From: Candidatus Wolframiiraptor sp.
GTDB lineage: Archaea; Thermoproteota; Nitrososphaeria_A; Caldarchaeales; Wolframiiraptoraceae
NCBI GenBank assembly: GCA_003660635.1
Contig: QMUP01000073.1
Coordinates: 1-5,520 of the forward strand
Length of the DNA: 5,520 bases
Direction: 5' to 3'
A program made the position numbers and the translations under genes. Under the pieces are notes generated by a model. It did no database searches and had not been told where the DNA came from. It saw only the letters and a list, made by a program, of their open reading frames with translations. Positions 1 through 5,520 of this stretch are shown here, piece by piece (position 1 is the first letter of the stretch; each line of letters starts with the position of its first letter).

Positions 1-1270
1 CTTCTTTTAGGGGGAGAATCGGCGTGCTCTCGCCATAGACCGGGCAGAGGTGCCTGTGCTTGAGCATTATCTCCAGTAGCTCGCCGATTTTCTCCTCGAG
101 GTTGCTGTGAGATAAACCGGGTATCAATTGGATTACGTCGTCGAGCCCCTGGCCGTGATAGACTAAGAGCAGGCGGTTTCCGATCCTGAGCCACGCCGGG
201 TTTCCTACGAAGATGAGGTCGCGTCCACTCTTCTCAAGAACCATCCTGTATTCGTCTGAAAGTGGTGGTTGGGGTAGTGCTCGCTGAATCGGCTCGTGAT
301 TTCCCGGCGCGATTATAACCTTGATGTTAGGGGGTATCTCGGCGATTAGTTTCGCCACTTCCTCGAACTGCTGGGTAATTGATGTTATTTCGAGTTCGTT
401 GTGTTGATTTGGATAGACTCCGACCCCATCGACTAGATCGCCTGCGATCACCAGAAAGCGTATCCTCTTTACCTCCGCATCTCTCGTCCGATTGATCCAA
501 TCGAGAAACCTCTCAAATAAGTCCCTCCTAAACTTCTTGCTTCCAACATGTAGATCTGAGATCAAGCAGATATTCACATCTCCCGAAGGCCAGCTCTCCT
601 GCGACCCAGAGGAGGGAACATCTGGGAGAAGTATCTCCCGCGCGATGAAGGATTCCCCGCGTTTACAAACCTTAACCGCGAAGATCGAATCCGGTAGAAG
701 CCGCTCCGCCGCGTGGAATAGTTTCTCGTTCCCCGTTTTTGGGACTATTATCGTGGCCTCGGCGGTTGGGTCATCGACGGTGAGGAATATGGCTCGCTCG
801 CTCTCCCTCCTCTCAAACAGCATGACGGCGGCATATGCTTCCTGGCCCTCCCTCAGCTTCAGGAGGGACTTTAAGTCCATTAACCCCCTGATCCTCTCCT
901 CGAAGATCCTCTTCAGCTTCTCATATCTGCTTCTAAAATACGCTTGAAACTCGTTGATCGCCCCCTTAATCCTATACTCTGCCGTGAAGCGTTCATCGAC
1001 CACTACATCGAATTCGGGTGGGGGCTCTGCGGCAGCCTCCGTAGCCGCCTCCACCTTCTGAGGAGCCCTAGAGAACTCTATCACCCTTTCAACATCGGCG
1101 ACGTCTACTATGGTGGAATTCGTCTTCAGCGTTTGGATCCGCTTTATCACCTTGTTTAATGCCTCTAAGGGGTCTTCGACGGATTCTAAGAGCTCTAGGG
1201 CGCGCTTAGTCAGGGTGTAGCCTTTCCTCGCGGCCTCGTCTACGAGCCTTTTAGCCAGCCTCCTCTGCAA
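1..1270 (-). CDS. polB: DNA polymerase D small subunit DP1 (PolB-type exonuclease subunit), partial at its C-terminus
   Basis: Small subunit of the archaeal replicative polymerase PolD; it partners the large subunit DP2 and carries the Mre11-like 3'-5' proofreading phosphatase fold. I translated 423 residues before the gene runs off the left edge. Residues 1-65 form a basic helical N-terminal region, and 66-90 an Ala/Pro/Glu-rich linker. About 95-210 is the region expected to hold the OB fold. The phosphoesterase domain begins near 230, with metal-ligand motifs DLH (239-241), GD (277-278), GNHE (323-326) and YHG (371-373), then the DP1-typical segment KHRHLCPVYGESTPILP (404-420). The final GHxH motif must lie outside the window. 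Start: TTG at 1270 has GGTGA at 1278-1282 with a 7-nt spacer; GTG at 1300, in frame after a stop at 1310-1312, would add ten residues but has no good ribosome site. It follows the dehydrogenase by about 51 bp and is probably co-transcribed. Family assignment is firm; the start is probable. Confidence 0.93.
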   Translation of the reverse strand, partial: MQRRLAKRLVDEAARKGYTLTKRALELLESVEDPLEALNKVIKRIQTLKTNSTIVDVADVERVIEFSRAPQKVEAATEAAAEPPPEFDVVVDERFTAEYRIKGAINEFQAYFRSRYEKLKRIFEERIRGLMDLKSLLKLREGQEAYAAVMLFERRESERAIFLTVDDPTAEATIIVPKTGNEKLFHAAERLLPDSIFAVKVCKRGESFIAREILLPDVPSSGSQESWPSGDVNICLISDLHVGSKKFRRDLFERFLDWINRTRDAEVKRIRFLVIAGDLVDGVGVYPNQHNELEITSITQQFEEVAKLIAEIPPNIKVIIAPGNHEPIQRALPQPPLSDEYRMVLEKSGRDLIFVGNPAWLRIGNRLLLVYHGQGLDDVIQLIPGLSHSNLEEKIGELLEIMLKHRHLCPVYGESTPILPLKE

Positions 1271-1277
1271 ATCGCCG

Positions 1278-1282
1278 TCACC
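1278..1282 (-). promoter_or_regulatory. Shine-Dalgarno site (GGTGA) that selects the TTG start of DP1
   Basis: Read on the minus strand, GGTGA lies 7 nt before TTG at 1270. It is complementary to the conserved archaeal 16S 3' end (AUCACCUCC). A second GGTGA at 1297-1301 overlaps the alternative GTG at 1300, so it cannot serve that start. Confidence 0.6.
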
Positions 1283-1321
1283 GATAACGCGGCACGTCAC
1301 CGAATAAGGTTATTTCCCCGG

Positions 1322-2395
1322 CTAGGCCCGGACTATTATCTTCAACGCGGCCTTCTCGGCCATGAGCCTGAAACCCTCATCTACCTCATCGAGCCTTATA
1401 CGATGGGTTATCAGGGGCTTGACGTCGATCCTCCCGGCCTCCAGCAACCCAGCCGACTCCGCGAAGGATACCGGGTCATAGCCAAAGCTCCCGACGACCC
1501 TCAGATCAAAATAATGAATTAGGTTGACGTCCACGCTGGCTCCGGCCTCCCTCGGCGGGAAGCCCGCGAAGAGGCAGATTACGCCGCCTTTTCTGACGGC
1601 TGAGAATGCTTGGGAGAGGGCATTTATCGAGGGCACGTCGACGAAGACCACATCCGCCCCTCTGCCGCCTGTATGTGATTTGATGTATTCCGCGACCCCG
1701 CGTTCGCGTGGATTGACTCCGAGGGCTCCCAGATCCTCCGCGATCCCAAGCCTTTGTTCGTCGATCTCGCTGACGAATATCTTCCCGCATCCGGAGGCCT
1801 TGCACGCGAGGAGGTGTAGCAGCCCCATCGGCCCGCCACCGATAATTAGGACGTTTTGGGATCTCGTGATCTCCGCGAGCCTCATGCTCTTGAGGACGCA
1901 TGCGAGGGGCTCGATTAACGTGGCCTCGTCGTCTGAGATCCCCGCCGAGAGCTTTACCGAGCTGAATTTCACGACCCTTTCCGGCAGCTTTATGAGCTCT
2001 GAGAAGCCTCCTGGGAAGATCATCCCCTCCAAGATCGGTAAACCATCGGGTGACTTACCGATCGGCTTAAACATGTTTTCGCAGAGCGTGTATTGGCCCC
2101 GTAGGCAGTAATAGCATCCGCCGCATGGGGCGTATCCGCCGATCGCGAGCCTATCGCCCTTCGAGAGTCCTTCTACATCCTCGGCTACCTCCACGACCTC
2201 GCCTACTATCTCGTGGCCCAAGACAACTGGGGGCCTCAATATCTTATGTCCCTTCGAGTAAGCCTTGTAGTCGGTTGCGCACAGCGCGCAGGCCCTTAGC
2301 TTGATCAGGACCTCTCCTGCTTCGAGATCCGGGATCGTTATCTCCTTAAATTCTATCTTCTCCAGCTCCGTCAGGACCGCTGCCCTACTCCTCAT
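1322..2395 (-). CDS. Zinc-dependent medium-chain alcohol/polyol dehydrogenase (sorbitol dehydrogenase-like)
   Basis: Medium-chain dehydrogenase/reductase of 357 residues, the normal family length, expected to oxidise a secondary hydroxyl of a polyol or sugar to a ketone in the cytoplasm. Catalytic-zinc residues are C39 (in CALCATD), H61-E62 (in GHE) and E162 (in IEPLA, typical of the sorbitol/threonine dehydrogenase branch). The structural-zinc loop is intact with C91, C94, C97 and C105. The Rossmann motif GGGPMG is at 186-191, and the following strand ends in SEID (E211, D213), which favours NAD+ over NADP+. ATG 2395 was chosen because GGTGA at 2404-2408 sits 8 nt upstream; ATG 2401 and GTG 2407 are in frame but too close to that site. 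The start overlaps the kinase end by 11 bp, so the two are probably translationally coupled. The substrate cannot be read from sequence: L-threonine, arabinitol, xylitol, sorbitol and sugar dehydrogenases all belong here. The kinase neighbour argues for a polyol or ketose pathway. Confidence 0.9.
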   Translation of the reverse strand: MRSRAAVLTELEKIEFKEITIPDLEAGEVLIKLRACALCATDYKAYSKGHKILRPPVVLGHEIVGEVVEVAEDVEGLSKGDRLAIGGYAPCGGCYYCLRGQYTLCENMFKPIGKSPDGLPILEGMIFPGGFSELIKLPERVVKFSSVKLSAGISDDEATLIEPLACVLKSMRLAEITRSQNVLIIGGGPMGLLHLLACKASGCGKIFVSEIDEQRLGIAEDLGALGVNPRERGVAEYIKSHTGGRGADVVFVDVPSINALSQAFSAVRKGGVICLFAGFPPREAGASVDVNLIHYFDLRVVGSFGYDPVSFAESAGLLEAGRIDVKPLITHRIRLDEVDEGFRLMAEKAALKIIVRA

Positions 2396-3881
2396 CCACA
2401 TCGTCACCGAGTTCGGGGAATAGGTCCTTCAGCCTCTCGTATAAGACCTTGTAGAGCGCGAATCTCCGGTCATACAGGCGGCGTAGCCCGGGATCAGGCT
2501 CGAACACCTCCTTAACCCTAACCATCTCGGTACACGCTCTACGTAGATCATTCCAGAATCCCGCGGCCATTCCGGCGAGGATCGCGGCTCCGAGTAGGCT
2601 TGCATCTGGCTCCTCGAAGGTGATTACCTTGAGGTTTGTGATGTCGGCCTTTATCTTGCTCCAGACCGGGTTCTTTGAGCCCCCTCCAGAGGATCGGAGT
2701 TCCTCGACCTCGACGCCCCTGAGCTCTAGGTCCTCGATGAGGTGCCGGATCGCGAAGCCGCAGCTCTCCAGAATAGACCTCACAAAATTCTTCCTCCCGT
2801 GCTTGAGCGTGATCCCGAATAAGACTCCCCGCGCCTTAGGATCCCAGATCGGGCTCCGCTCACCAGCGAAATAGGGTAGTAGGATGAGGCCCTCGGCTCC
2901 CGGAGGGCAGAGTGACGCCTCATAGCATAGGAGGTCGTAGTCGCCTCCACCTACCACACCTCTCAAATCCTCATCGACGCCGAAGTTGTCTCGGAACCAT
3001 CGGAGGATCGCGCCCGTCGAGGAGGTGAATCCGCCGGCTATCCAGAGGCCATCTATTAGGAATGGCATGAGCGGGAGGTTGGGGCCATAGGGCATCCTCC
3101 TCCGAGTCAGGGAGGCGACGACCGTCGAATGGCCTGTTATCTCGTAGGCGGATCCCTCCTCGAGGCAGGCGACCCCGAGTGAGGCCAGGACCCCGTCTAC
3201 CCCGCCTAGGGCCACGACCACGTCCCGCGGTAGACCCAGCTCCTCCGAGGCCTCTCCAGATAACGTCCCCAAGACCTCCCCGGGTCTCCGGACTTCCGGC
3301 AACAACTCCTCATCGACCCCGACCGCGGATAGCAGGTCCTCATCCCATCTGCCTTTTTCGACGTCGTAGCCGGCCATGGCCGCGCTGTACCAGTCTGTAA
3401 CCGCCTCGCCGCAGAGCCTCTGATTAAGGAAACTCATCGCGCAGAGATATCTGGAGCAGCTTTCGTGGATTTCCGGCCTATTCTTCTTCAGCCAGAGGAG
3501 CTTCGGCATGAAGTAGGTGGCGTCTGAGCAGTTGAGCCCCAGATTTCTCAGCTCCCGCGACTCCTCGACCGCCCTGGAGTCCATCCACAGTATCGCCCTC
3601 GTTAGGGGATTTCCCTCCGCGTCAACGGGTATCAGGGTTGGGGCCTGCGCGCTCAAGGCCATGGCCCGAATATCCTCGGGTTTGATCCCCTCGGCGAAAA
3701 GTTCTCTGAAACAGGTTCTGAGGGCATTCCACCAAAGCGTGGGATCCTGCTCGGCCCAACCCGGGGCGGGGAACTCGACGCCGTATTCCCGTCGCTTCTT
3801 CGCGACGCAGCCGCCGTCCTCTCGATAGACGGCGATTTTACAGCCCGTGGTCCCGACATCTATTCCGGCGAGTAACTCCAT
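2385..3881 (-). CDS. FGGY-family carbohydrate kinase (xylulokinase-like)
   Basis: ATP-dependent sugar kinase of 498 residues, the usual FGGY length. The N-terminal actin-like domain opens with phosphate loop GIDVGTTG (6-13), followed by GWAEQDP (41-47) and ILWMDSRA (97-104). GGVDG (226-230) carries the presumed catalytic base D229, and ITGHST (248-253) follows. The C-terminal domain has the second FGGY signature around LLPYFAGERSPIWD (334-347), the helix with LESCGFAIRHLIEDL, and the adenosine-binding GGGSKNPVW (399-407). Overall it looks most like xylulokinase. However, the GQMHG substrate loop of bacterial XylB reads SAQAPTLIPVD here (77-87), so the sugar is uncertain; xylulose, ribulose or another ketose are candidates. 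ATG 3881 has no spaced Shine-Dalgarno, but a TATA-like box about 29 nt upstream suits a leaderless transcript. It overlaps the dehydrogenase by 11 bp; together they could convert a polyol to a ketose phosphate. It interrupts the usual orc1-DP1 adjacency. Confidence 0.92.
   Translation of the reverse strand: MELLAGIDVGTTGCKIAVYREDGGCVAKKRREYGVEFPAPGWAEQDPTLWWNALRTCFRELFAEGIKPEDIRAMALSAQAPTLIPVDAEGNPLTRAILWMDSRAVEESRELRNLGLNCSDATYFMPKLLWLKKNRPEIHESCSRYLCAMSFLNQRLCGEAVTDWYSAAMAGYDVEKGRWDEDLLSAVGVDEELLPEVRRPGEVLGTLSGEASEELGLPRDVVVALGGVDGVLASLGVACLEEGSAYEITGHSTVVASLTRRRMPYGPNLPLMPFLIDGLWIAGGFTSSTGAILRWFRDNFGVDEDLRGVVGGGDYDLLCYEASLCPPGAEGLILLPYFAGERSPIWDPKARGVLFGITLKHGRKNFVRSILESCGFAIRHLIEDLELRGVEVEELRSSGGGSKNPVWSKIKADITNLKVITFEEPDASLLGAAILAGMAAGFWNDLRRACTEMVRVKEVFEPDPGLRRLYDRRFALYKVLYERLKDLFPELGDDVDEE
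2404..2408 (-). promoter_or_regulatory. Shine-Dalgarno site (GGTGA) inside the kinase 3' end, for the dehydrogenase
   Basis: GGTGA on the minus strand lies within the last codons of the kinase (Gly-Asp of GDDVDEE), 8 nt before ATG 2395. It decides between the three in-frame starts at 2407, 2401 and 2395, and implies translational coupling of the overlapping pair. Confidence 0.6.
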
Positions 3882-3906
3882 TCACTTTGAGATTGTCGTT
3901 GTTGGT

Positions 3907-3914
3907 CTTTTATT
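3907..3914 (-). promoter_or_regulatory. TATA-like box, candidate leaderless promoter of the kinase-dehydrogenase(-DP1) unit
   Basis: The minus strand reads AATAAAAG at -33 to -26 relative to the kinase ATG. In archaea transcription starts roughly 25-27 bp from the TATA centre, which would put the start at or next to the ATG. The lack of a usable Shine-Dalgarno before this ATG agrees with that. The 63-bp gap between orc1 and the kinase shows no coding-strand T-tract terminator, so read-through from orc1 is also possible. Confidence 0.4.
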
Positions 3915-3944
3915 GGTTGTGATGTGGCCTCCGGATCGCGTTCC

Positions 3945-5231
3945 CTATTTTCTGGCGATGGATGGCGTGTAGTTCAGCAGGGAGGCGAGGACTTCGTCGC
4001 TTCCGATGACCTCTTCCACCTCATCAGGAGGGGTAAGCAGGACTATCTTCCTCGTCCTACCCCGCCTCCCCATGTTGACTAGGTCGCTCTTCACGACCCC
4101 CAGCATATCGAGCTCCGAGATCAGGGTGCTCACCCGCCTATCCGTGAGGGGTTCGACGCCGATGAGCCCGCAGACCTCTCTATATGTTTGGTAGATCATC
4201 CCGGAGATGGGGTCGTTTACGCCGTTCTTCGTGAGCAGGAGGAGGGACGTTAAGACGAGTTTGCTGTGGAGGGGGAGCGTGGAGAGGGCCTCGAAGACCC
4301 TACCCCGCTCGATTATGCTCTGGGCGATCCTTACATGCCTCTCCTCGACCCGCTCGTCCCCATTCCTCTCCGCGACCTCCGCCGCGACCCTGAGCAGATC
4401 TATGGCCCTCCTCGCGTCTCCATGTTCGGCGGCGGCGAGGGCTGCGCATAAATTGATCACATTTTGGGGAACCGCTCCATCGTGGAAGGCCAGCTCCGCT
4501 CTCTCGCTGAGGATGTCCACGAGCTCCATGGCCGTGTATGGGTGGAATACGAGTTCTTCCTCGCTGAGGCTGCTGAGAACCCTGGGGTCGAGGTAGTCCT
4601 TGAAGTGGAGGTCATTCGAGGTCCCCACGAGGGATAAGCCGCCTCCCTCCATGCCCTCATTTATCCTAGTCAATTCGTAGAGGAGGTTGTCGCCATAGGA
4701 CTTCACCAGCGCGTCGACCTCATCGAAGCAGGCCACGAGCAGTAACCCCTTCTCCCTGAGCCCCTTCCTAAGCCTGTTATAGACCTCGGCCTTCGACAAC
4801 CCTGTGAAGGGAACCCTCACCCCGATGGCCCCACAGAGCTCGCTCAAGGCCTTGTACTCGGTTCCCGAGATCCTGCAGTTCACGTAAGCAAAGGCGAGGG
4901 GAAGATTCTCCTTCTCGGCGACCTCCTCAAATCTCTTAAATACGTATCTCACCACCGCCGTCTTCCCGGTCCCAGTTTTTCCGTAGATGAAGACGTTGCT
5001 GGGCCTAGAGAGGCTCAGGGCTGGAGCCAGGATCTCTCCAAGCCTCCGAATATGCTCGTCTCTATGAGGAAGCCTGTCGGGGACATAGTCAGATCTCATG
5101 ACTTCCCTGTTCTTGAATATCCTAGGTCTCCGCAGAGCCCTCTGAAAGACCTCGCTGAGGGGATCCCCTTCACCCCTAAATTTCTGATGAACTAGCCCCT
5201 TGACGATGTCAGGTCGTTTATTTGACTTCAA
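3945..5231 (-). CDS. cdc6: Orc1/Cdc6 replication initiator (AAA+ ATPase with C-terminal winged helix)
   Basis: Origin-recognition protein that binds ORB elements and helps load the MCM helicase. It has 428 residues, near the usual archaeal length. A basic N-terminal tail leads to the family hallmark NREVMRSDYVPDRLPHRDEHI (41-61). Walker A is GKTGTGKT (84-91), Walker B is LLVACFDEVD (D170, E171), and sensor 1 is GTSND (N206). DPRVLSSL (215-222) holds the candidate arginine finger, and sensor 2 is GDARRAIDLL (271-280). Residues from about 315 form the winged-helix domain, with basic wing GRRGRTRK (388-395). All ATPase residues look intact. TTG 5231 is the start because it is the only start codon between an upstream in-frame stop near 5302 and the conserved core; an imperfect AAGGGG lies 9 nt before it. 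The gene reads away from the origin-like region at 5232-5520, the normal archaeal arrangement of a cognate initiator beside its origin. Confidence 0.96.
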   Translation of the reverse strand: MKSNKRPDIVKGLVHQKFRGEGDPLSEVFQRALRRPRIFKNREVMRSDYVPDRLPHRDEHIRRLGEILAPALSLSRPSNVFIYGKTGTGKTAVVRYVFKRFEEVAEKENLPLAFAYVNCRISGTEYKALSELCGAIGVRVPFTGLSKAEVYNRLRKGLREKGLLLVACFDEVDALVKSYGDNLLYELTRINEGMEGGGLSLVGTSNDLHFKDYLDPRVLSSLSEEELVFHPYTAMELVDILSERAELAFHDGAVPQNVINLCAALAAAEHGDARRAIDLLRVAAEVAERNGDERVEERHVRIAQSIIERGRVFEALSTLPLHSKLVLTSLLLLTKNGVNDPISGMIYQTYREVCGLIGVEPLTDRRVSTLISELDMLGVVKSDLVNMGRRGRTRKIVLLTPPDEVEEVIGSDEVLASLLNYTPSIARK

Positions 5232-5249
5232 GAGAAGTAGCCCCTTTTC

Positions 5250-5256
5250 ATTATAA
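5250..5256 (-). promoter_or_regulatory. TATA-like TTATAAT just upstream of orc1 (alternative proximal promoter)
   Basis: The minus strand reads TTATAAT, centred about 22 nt before the TTG start of orc1. That is slightly too close for a standard leaderless transcript, so it is the less favoured of two orc1 promoter candidates. Confidence 0.25.
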
Positions 5257-5291
5257 CGAAGATGCGCTAAAGAACTGGCTTCACTAGAAAA

Positions 5292-5307
5292 GTAGCGTCA
5301 ACGCTAC
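5292..5307. promoter_or_regulatory. 16-bp perfect palindrome (7-bp arms, 2-bp centre), candidate operator or initiator site upstream of orc1
   Basis: GTAGCGT, then CA, then ACGCTAC: all seven arm positions pair. The symmetry stops at the next base on each side. It lies about 60 bp upstream of the orc1 start, between an A+T-rich TATA candidate (5313-5320) and the transcription start that box would predict (near 5290). It has no T-tract beside it, so it is more likely a protein-binding site than a terminator. The binding protein is unknown. Confidence 0.5.
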
Positions 5308-5312
5308 ACTCC

Positions 5313-5320
5313 ATTTTATT
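5313..5320 (-). promoter_or_regulatory. TATA-like AATAAAAT, candidate orc1 promoter
   Basis: The minus strand reads AATAAAAT; a start about 26 bp downstream would fall near 5290, giving a leader of roughly 60 nt that contains the AAGGGG site before TTG 5231. The box directly abuts the ORB-like element beginning at 5322, so Orc1 binding there could affect its own transcription. Called from position and composition only. Confidence 0.35.
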
Positions 5321-5321
5321 T

Positions 5322-5340
5322 TTCTAACGGAAAAAGGGGC
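5322..5340 (+). repeat. ORB-like element (degenerate dyad with G-string)
   Basis: TTCT-AAC-GGAAA followed by AAGGGGC. It matches the strong ORB at 5358 in 9 of 12 dyad positions and has the same orientation with a GGGG run, but the run is 2 bp closer to the dyad. Probable weak Orc1/Cdc6 site. Confidence 0.4.
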
Positions 5341-5357
5341 GCCGGCTGTGATCGAGG

Positions 5358-5386
5358 CTTCCAGTGGAAATAGAGGGGTCAGAGGG
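5358..5386 (+). repeat. Origin recognition box (ORB), Orc1/Cdc6 binding site
   Basis: CTTCCAGTGGAAA followed, after TAGA, by GGGG and then TCAGAGGG. This has the two parts of the archaeal ORB known from Pyrococcus, Sulfolobus and Aeropyrum origins: the short dyad TTCC-AGT-GGAAA bound by the winged helix, and the asymmetric G-string contacted by the AAA+ domain. The G-string points rightward, away from orc1. The match is from memory of the consensus. Confidence 0.75.
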
Positions 5387-5398
5387 AGATTAGGGCCC

Positions 5399-5437
5399 GG
5401 TTCTTGGCAAGATCGTTTTTCACTTTTGTGAAGAACC
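5399..5437. repeat. Inverted repeat GGTTCTT / AAGAACC with short nested repeats
   Basis: GGTTCTT (5399-5405) pairs perfectly with AAGAACC (5431-5437) across 25 bp. Inside the right half, TTCAC (5419-5423) faces GTGAA (5428-5432). TGTGAAG also occurs twice, 12 bp apart (5427-5433 and 5439-5445). The cluster lies at the change from mixed to A+T-rich sequence in the origin region. Function unknown; some of this could be chance in A+T-rich DNA. Confidence 0.3.
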
Positions 5438-5455
5438 ATGTGAAGTTTTTCCGCA

Positions 5456-5471
5456 TTTTCCTTAGGAAAAA
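5456..5471 (+). repeat. mini-ORB-like dyad without G-string
   Basis: TTTTCCT-T-AGGAAAA is a perfect odd palindrome with 7-bp arms and contains TTCC-TTA-GGAAA, the same half-sites and 3-bp spacing as the strong ORB. No G-run follows; the sequence continues into A+T-rich DNA. It could be a mini-ORB or part of a duplex-unwinding region. Confidence 0.35.
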
Positions 5472-5503
5472 GTATATTTCCAATGAGAAATGCTCTCAAA
5501 ATC

Positions 5504-5517
5504 CTTTCACAGGAAAT
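5504..5517 (+). repeat. ORB-like dyad at the window edge
   Basis: CTTTCACAGGAAAT agrees with the strong ORB (CTTCCAGTGGAAAT) in 11 of 14 positions, in the same orientation. Only four bases remain before the window ends, so whether a G-string follows cannot be seen. Confidence 0.3.
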
Positions 5518-5520
5518 TCA

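Follow-up and report, generated by a model that had tools for sequence, protein, structure and literature searches.

The window analysed here is the whole of contig QMUP01000073.1 (5,520 nt; C96 of draft genome G000, which comprises 1.23 Mb in 245 contigs and is 83% complete) from Candidatus Wolframiiraptor sp. It carries the replication initiator gene orc1/cdc6, an FGGY sugar kinase gene, an overlapping zinc-dependent dehydrogenase gene and the gene for DP1, the small subunit of DNA polymerase D (PolD). We are fairly confident that the kinase and dehydrogenase form a two-gene cassette inserted between orc1 and DP1, which was acquired horizontally from a different lineage of archaea and has a predicted role in a polyol/ketose pathway. 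An earlier note, made from the sequence alone, had read the order origin, orc1, DP1 on one strand, with the kinase and dehydrogenase in between, and had proposed an insertion. The positions of all four genes on the minus strand and their order proved correct, and the proposal of an insertion is supported by an empty site in relatives and by the kinase tree.

An empty site in relatives and sharp edges

In each of 100 relatives the best orc1 match was paired with a DP1 match, and gaps were measured between the aligned parts. Within the window's own family (f1), 19 of 21 relatives have both genes, always adjacent and on the same strand, while the other two (G010 and G013) are without a DP1 match. 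The two genes are likewise adjacent in all ten members of family f2 that have both (of 12 examined) and in both members of f3. Across these 31 genomes the gap between orc1 and DP1 is 27-289 nt, compared with 2,647 nt in the window, and the cassette is absent from the spacer in every one of them, so that the site is empty in sisters and outgroups alike. The remaining neighbourhood around orc1 is common to congeners with sufficiently long contigs. In family f4, seven of eight genomes have both genes, but far apart or on separate contigs, and in several more distant genomes (e.g., G046, G051 and G081) orc1 and DP1 are convergent; the tight same-strand order therefore belongs to f1-f3 and not to the whole phylum. 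The same four-gene order throughout the phylum, which would have spoken against an insertion, was thus not found.

The edges of the inserted segment are sharp. A blastn comparison with the locus (L115) of the nearest sampled sister, G007, covered window positions 8-1318 and 3949-5310 and nothing between them: homology breaks off no more than 4 nt from the stop codon of the dehydrogenase and restarts where orc1 ends. Between that stop codon and the TTG of DP1 lie 51 nt that align with the G007 leader (score 22, maximum 8 in 2,000 shuffles), whereas the 63-nt orc1-kinase spacer does not align with that of G007 (score -8.5; the shuffles average -8.4). Therefore, ~2,630 nt stand in place of ~93 nt in G007. 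We propose that a single insertion, in the common stem of the window and a sister species represented by a JGI contig, took the place of ~93 nt of spacer and left the last 51 nt ahead of DP1. With these bases retained DP1 keeps its own leader, and thus the cassette would not abolish DP1 expression.

Source of the cassette and placement of the gain

Gene trees were built for both enzymes. The kinase tree is at odds with the species tree: the cassette kinase clusters with distant sequences, including one from a different family of archaea, and not with the kinases of congeners, whereas the other kinases of the window genome (on contigs C155 and C9) group with those of its relatives (quick trees). 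In this tree, from which three long-branched named rows were left out, the cassette kinase falls with G367 and P0003-P0006 in a clade of eight rows (99*, quick tree, SH-like approximate likelihood-ratio test only). The dehydrogenase tree is compatible with an insertion, although the gene is weakly placed.

To look for the source, 397 further genomes from the phylum, an even sample of a larger group, were searched. For the kinase the top match reaches 41% identity (G367:C26:5605-7047), and no match with an E value of 1e-90 or lower exceeds this figure; for the dehydrogenase the top match reaches 40% (G367:C26:8236-9252). Both lie on one contig and strand, 1.2 kb apart, in a run of FGGY kinase, ribokinase, dehydrogenase and DeoC-type aldolase genes beside a methenyltetrahydromethanopterin cyclohydrolase gene, and the G367 kinase scores 391 bits against the XylB model TIGR01312, above its cut-off of 380.25. 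Since the nearest relatives of both cassette genes in this search are found together on one contig of the phylum, the donor was likely of archaeal type and belonged to another archaeal lineage. The G367 run nevertheless differs from the cassette in its ~40% identity, in the ribokinase between kinase and dehydrogenase, and in lacking, over the 18 kb examined, any match to orc1 or DP1. Bacterial affinity, offered as one option in the earlier note, was not seen. Named relatives on genome contigs (13 loci, best 34% identity) gave no information about the source. In two further families of archaea, FGGY kinases related to the cassette kinase have DeoC-type aldolase genes nearby (L207 5587-10119 and L208 5340-7788), hinting at a kinase-aldolase sugar route.

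The gain can be placed more closely than its source. Kinase P0001, 98% identical to that of the window, stands for a 90% cluster of 20 member sequences. Outside its own population, the best match of the kinase is P0002 (85% identity) and that of DP1 is P0242 (82%), both located on JGI contigs 25,891 b long. From the equal contig size it is nearly certain that P0002 and P0242 lie on one and the same contig, and this second species thus very probably has the kinase near DP1. The similar divergence of kinase and DP1 suggests that the kinase has been kept under selection. In a careful DP1 tree (56 rows, translated from the strand with the fewest stops), there is a clade made up of the window, P0241 and P0242 (99/92), next to G007, P0243 and P0244 (100/99), while six other congeners, in which the site is empty, fall outside both; in the G007 clade the empty site is known from G007 alone. 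Taken together with the presence of the kinase in two species, this tree places the gain on the branch to the window and P0242. Elsewhere in the tree, G024 of family f4 groups with P0300 (Candidatus Caldarchaeum) and G011 of f1 with P0281 (Aigarchaeota archaeon), affinities that point to Caldarchaeales as the likely order.

The second species also bears on whether the contig is a chimera or was wrongly binned, either because the assembler joined the cassette to orc1-DP1 or because another species is in the bin. The contig is short and comes from a 245-contig draft, its GC content is 56.3%, compared with an average of 48.4% in the 45 contigs that could be read out of 50 sampled (z 2.25, with a single contig higher; the five without readable letters were dropped), and the GC content at third codon positions (GC3) of orc1 is above that of all 224 sampled native open reading frames (ORFs). 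Nevertheless, we consider such an artefact very unlikely, because in the second species the contigs that hold the kinase and DP1 are equal in size. Moreover, the gene spacings of 63 nt and 21-51 nt are gene-like, and the DP1 leader is continuous with DP1. High GC3 in orc1 is also found in the sisters G007 (z 1.6, 74 ORFs) and G002 (z 2.1, 22 ORFs), so the high GC of the contig is no proof of mis-binning. The insertion would stand even if the contig came from a sibling species. In the window genome too, orc1 (3945-5231) has a GC3 well above the sampled-ORF mean (z 2.6).

Predicted enzymes and competing explanations

The kinase matches the Pfam domains FGGY_N (170 bits) and FGGY_C (125 bits) above their cut-offs, and D8 is nearly invariant and D229 invariant in 39 aligned rows; we take these two residues to be the catalytic aspartates. 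It thereby qualifies as an FGGY kinase and, in its two domains and conserved aspartates, resembles the XylB branch of the family (TIGR01312). The SGQMHG motif of xylulokinase 5vm1 corresponds to SAQAPT in the cassette kinase, to SGQSPT in P0004 and to SGQAPT in P0005. The dehydrogenase matches ADH_N (88 bits) and ADH_zinc_N (71 bits), again above the cut-offs, and C43, H65, E66 and E166 as well as C95, C98, C101 and C109, presumably the zinc ligands, are invariant in 20 rows. With both domains and both zinc sites it belongs to the zinc-dependent medium-chain dehydrogenases, and an acidic residue after the second strand (VSEID) presumably indicates a preference for NAD. The same domains and zinc-site residues occur in L-threonine 3-dehydrogenase (2dfv and 2d8a) and in L-iditol 2-dehydrogenase-like proteins; the cassette dehydrogenase, however, reaches 177 of 458 bits against the tdh model and passes no substrate-specific NCBIfam model, so that the label 'polyol' given to it in the earlier note is a guess.

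At least six more kinase-dehydrogenase neighbours (same strand, less than 300 nt apart) occur among the matches listed (G074:C8, G053:C9, G008:C47, G007:C25, G007:C70 and G026:C2), and for Wolframiiraptor gerlachensis, a cultivated member of the Caldarchaeales, xylose isomerase and multiple xylulose kinase genes are reported in passages of PMC9246946. Based on these recurrent pairs and on the W. gerlachensis genes, our best guess, towards which genome context and resemblance lead us to lean, is a route from polyol to ketose to ketose phosphate: the NAD-dependent dehydrogenase would make the ketose, and the FGGY kinase would convert it to ketose phosphate that feeds central metabolism. A GGTGA sequence lies at 2404-2408, within the last kinase codons and eight bases ahead of the dehydrogenase ATG at 2395. 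As the dehydrogenase start overlaps the kinase end behind this GGTGA, the dehydrogenase may be translated by coupling to the kinase.

Several observations weigh against a single transfer of a polyol/ketose cassette. The kinase scores 308.7 bits against TIGR01312, its best model, below the cut-off of 380.25, and since the dehydrogenase falls below all substrate models, the substrate is not fixed. The possible donor is only ~40% identical, which leaves the donor lineage and the direction of transfer weakly resolved. In its tree the dehydrogenase forms a long branch close to P0133, P0147, G367 and P0122-P0124 (P0122 being from a Thermoproteota archaeon), with a long-branch warning at the join; one row of this tree, the ribokinase G367_7102, is no dehydrogenase and merely gave a long root branch. 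Apart from P0121 (98% identical, from the window's own population), nothing above 43% identity to the dehydrogenase was found among the best 120 of 3,018 matches, and no orthologue in the JGI sister. By this comparison the sister seems to lack the gene or to have a broken copy, and the two genes may therefore not have come in together, or not have remained together. The junction areas share no direct repeat of 6 nt or longer (no common 6-mer), and there is neither an integrase or transposase gene among the four genes of the window, none of which is a mobility gene, nor a target-site duplication at the junctions. Finally, composition had to be dropped as a sign of foreignness. In codon distance the kinase is exceeded by 2.5% of 81 and the dehydrogenase by 7.4% of 121 native ORFs of similar length, the GC3 of the cassette is 0.72-0.74 against a genome mean of 0.56-0.57, and the word usage of the insert lies at the 6th percentile of 159 stretches; the cassette is therefore odd for this genome, but orc1 is odder still (codon distance exceeded by 0.9% of 106 native ORFs, GC3 0.75).

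Two possible routes of entry were also considered. Integration at a tRNA gene was rejected, as the window contains no tRNA gene and no Rfam match at the gathering threshold. As for a viral carrier, viral contigs gave 11 pattern stretches, and no kinase relative is encoded in any of them.

The earlier note had also raised a lineage-specific link between carbon supply and replication, in which sugar supply, or gene dosage early in replication, is tied to initiation and keeps the pair at the origin. The kinase does seem to have been retained near DP1 through divergence to 82-85% identity, and metabolic control of replication has been described in bacteria (PMC10427196 and PMC9009071). However, the arrangement is known in one small clade only, the sister has apparently not retained the dehydrogenase, the leader of DP1 is still its own, a candidate promoter of its own precedes the kinase (a TATA-like stretch read by eye), and neither a regulator nor a fusion is present within the window. 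Nothing tested favours such coupling, and we regard it as highly doubtful. A specific form of this link, a nutrient gauge in which transcription from orc1 through the kinase and dehydrogenase into DP1 would couple carbon supply to the dose of initiator and PolD, is scarcely probable; if true, it would be an archaeal counterpart of bacterial metabolic control of replication. We suggest instead that the position of the inserted pair beside the origin is incidental and would reflect a tolerated insertion and not a regulatory device. That orc1-kinase-dehydrogenase-DP1 is the ancestral order and the compact one derived is extremely improbable: the kinase is common to two species and so is not brand new, but many independent clean losses would be needed across 31 genomes of three families, and those kinases of congeners that the tree includes are no orthologues.

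The origin region and the fate of the orc1-DP1 linkage

The features of the locus are collected in Table 1. The window's orc1 product matches Cdc6_C (99 bits) and Cdc6_lid (94 bits) above the Pfam cut-offs and scores 417.8 bits against TIGR02928 (cut-off 181.3), which makes it a member of the Orc1/Cdc6 family. A paralogue, 31% identical, lies on contig C81 of the same genome. The copy in the window is the syntenic one and bears an origin recognition box (ORB), contrary to the possibility, raised as an objection in the earlier note, that it is a second orc1 unconnected with an origin. DP1 matches DNA_pol_E_B (62.5 bits) above its cut-off, and the protein, which is cut, falls below the equivalog cut-offs. 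DP1 probably starts at TTG 1270, which matches the predicted starts of its congeners, and for the dehydrogenase ATG 2395 is more likely the start than GTG 2407, because the database protein P0121 starts there.

Table 1. Features of the 5,520-nt window
Feature	Position	Strand	Basis and remarks
orc1/cdc6 initiator, primary copy	3945-5231	-	Pfam, TIGR02928; 87% identical to G007; syntenic with relatives
FGGY sugar kinase, XylB-like	2385-3881	-	498 aa, open; Pfam, NCBIfam and trees
Zinc-dependent medium-chain dehydrogenase	1322-2395	-	ORF open from GTG 2407; overlaps kinase end
DP1, small (exonuclease) subunit of PolD	2-1300, cut by contig end	-	Likely start TTG 1270
Partial oriC intergenic region (predicted)	5232-5520	.	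AT-richer than the rest; cut by contig end
ORB-type origin box TCCAGTGGAAATAGAGGGGT	5360-5379	+	Proximal one of two convergent boxes
Inserted segment, ~2,630 nt	1319-3948	-	blastn against G007 locus L115
DP1 leader, 51 nt, retained from pre-insertion locus	1271-1321	-	GGTGA at 1278-1282
Candidate TATA-like stretch AATAAAAG	3907-3914	-	26-33 nt before kinase ATG; read by eye

We take the sequence TCCAGTGGAAATAGAGGGGT to be an archaeal ORB from its likeness to the general ORB motif, which was then tested by pattern counts. In 21 loci (the window and 20 relatives), the pattern TCCANTGGAAANNNNNGGGG, with up to three mismatches, has 59 matches in 18,289 nt upstream of orc1, compared with 12 in the other 187,847 nt of these loci. 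A proximal box in one orientation lies at -147 to -218 from orc1 in all 21 loci, including 20 of 20 relatives, and a distal box in the opposite orientation is found in 19 of 20 relatives (in G026 the distal box is reversed). The window has one box within the 289 nt available upstream of orc1 and ends before the place of the distal box, which the G007 spacing (~165 nt) puts just past the contig end. The end of the contig (window 5480-5520) is thus within a few bases of the expected distal ORB, and assemblies may break at that repeat. Archaeal origins are in general described as AT-rich DNA flanked by ORBs (passages of PMC5333045), and the two convergent boxes beside orc1 in the window's relatives fit this description. 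The prediction of an origin at this locus is thus supported by sequence.

An island of oriC, cdc6/orc1 and DP1 is known from Pyrococcus, Halobacteriales and Methanosarcinales, and among replication genes DP1 is described as the one most often found linked to cdc6, a linkage that has been interpreted as a hint of PolD recruitment by Cdc6 at the origin (passages of PMC2643942). The window too links an ORB-type box, orc1 and the small subunit of PolD on one strand. It differs from the island in the two metabolic genes that keep orc1 from being directly adjacent to DP1, and in that pieces of the gene for DP2 are on other contigs of the genome (C66 and C136). Among the papers listed by our literature searches, none describes metabolic genes between orc1 and DP1, which is not proof of absence in print.

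The same spot differs in another way in genus g4 of the window's family (G010 and G013), where the neighbourhood is shared but orc1 is followed by the next conserved gene with DP1 missing from precisely that place (L123, G010:C1:40000-52000; L124, G013:C20:2000-14000). Neither the DP1 nor the DP2 model has a match anywhere in either of the two g4 drafts (88% and 80% complete), and each draft has two matches to PolB. It is possible that PolD was lost independently here, outside the lineages known to be without it. DP2 also has no match in G007 (93% complete) or G002 (76% complete), even though DP1 adjoins orc1 in both, and there the gap could be either an incomplete draft or a real loss. The absence of DP2 alone is therefore a weak sign in drafts, and the syntenic gap in place of DP1 is the stronger one in g4.

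Overall, the cassette is an ordinary kind of gene gain in an unusual place. A clean insertion on a single branch, with an empty site in the sister, means that the tight adjacency of orc1 and DP1 can be broken without loss of either gene. This insertion and the absence of DP1 from the same spot in a sister genus make the locus a natural test of whether the adjacency itself matters.

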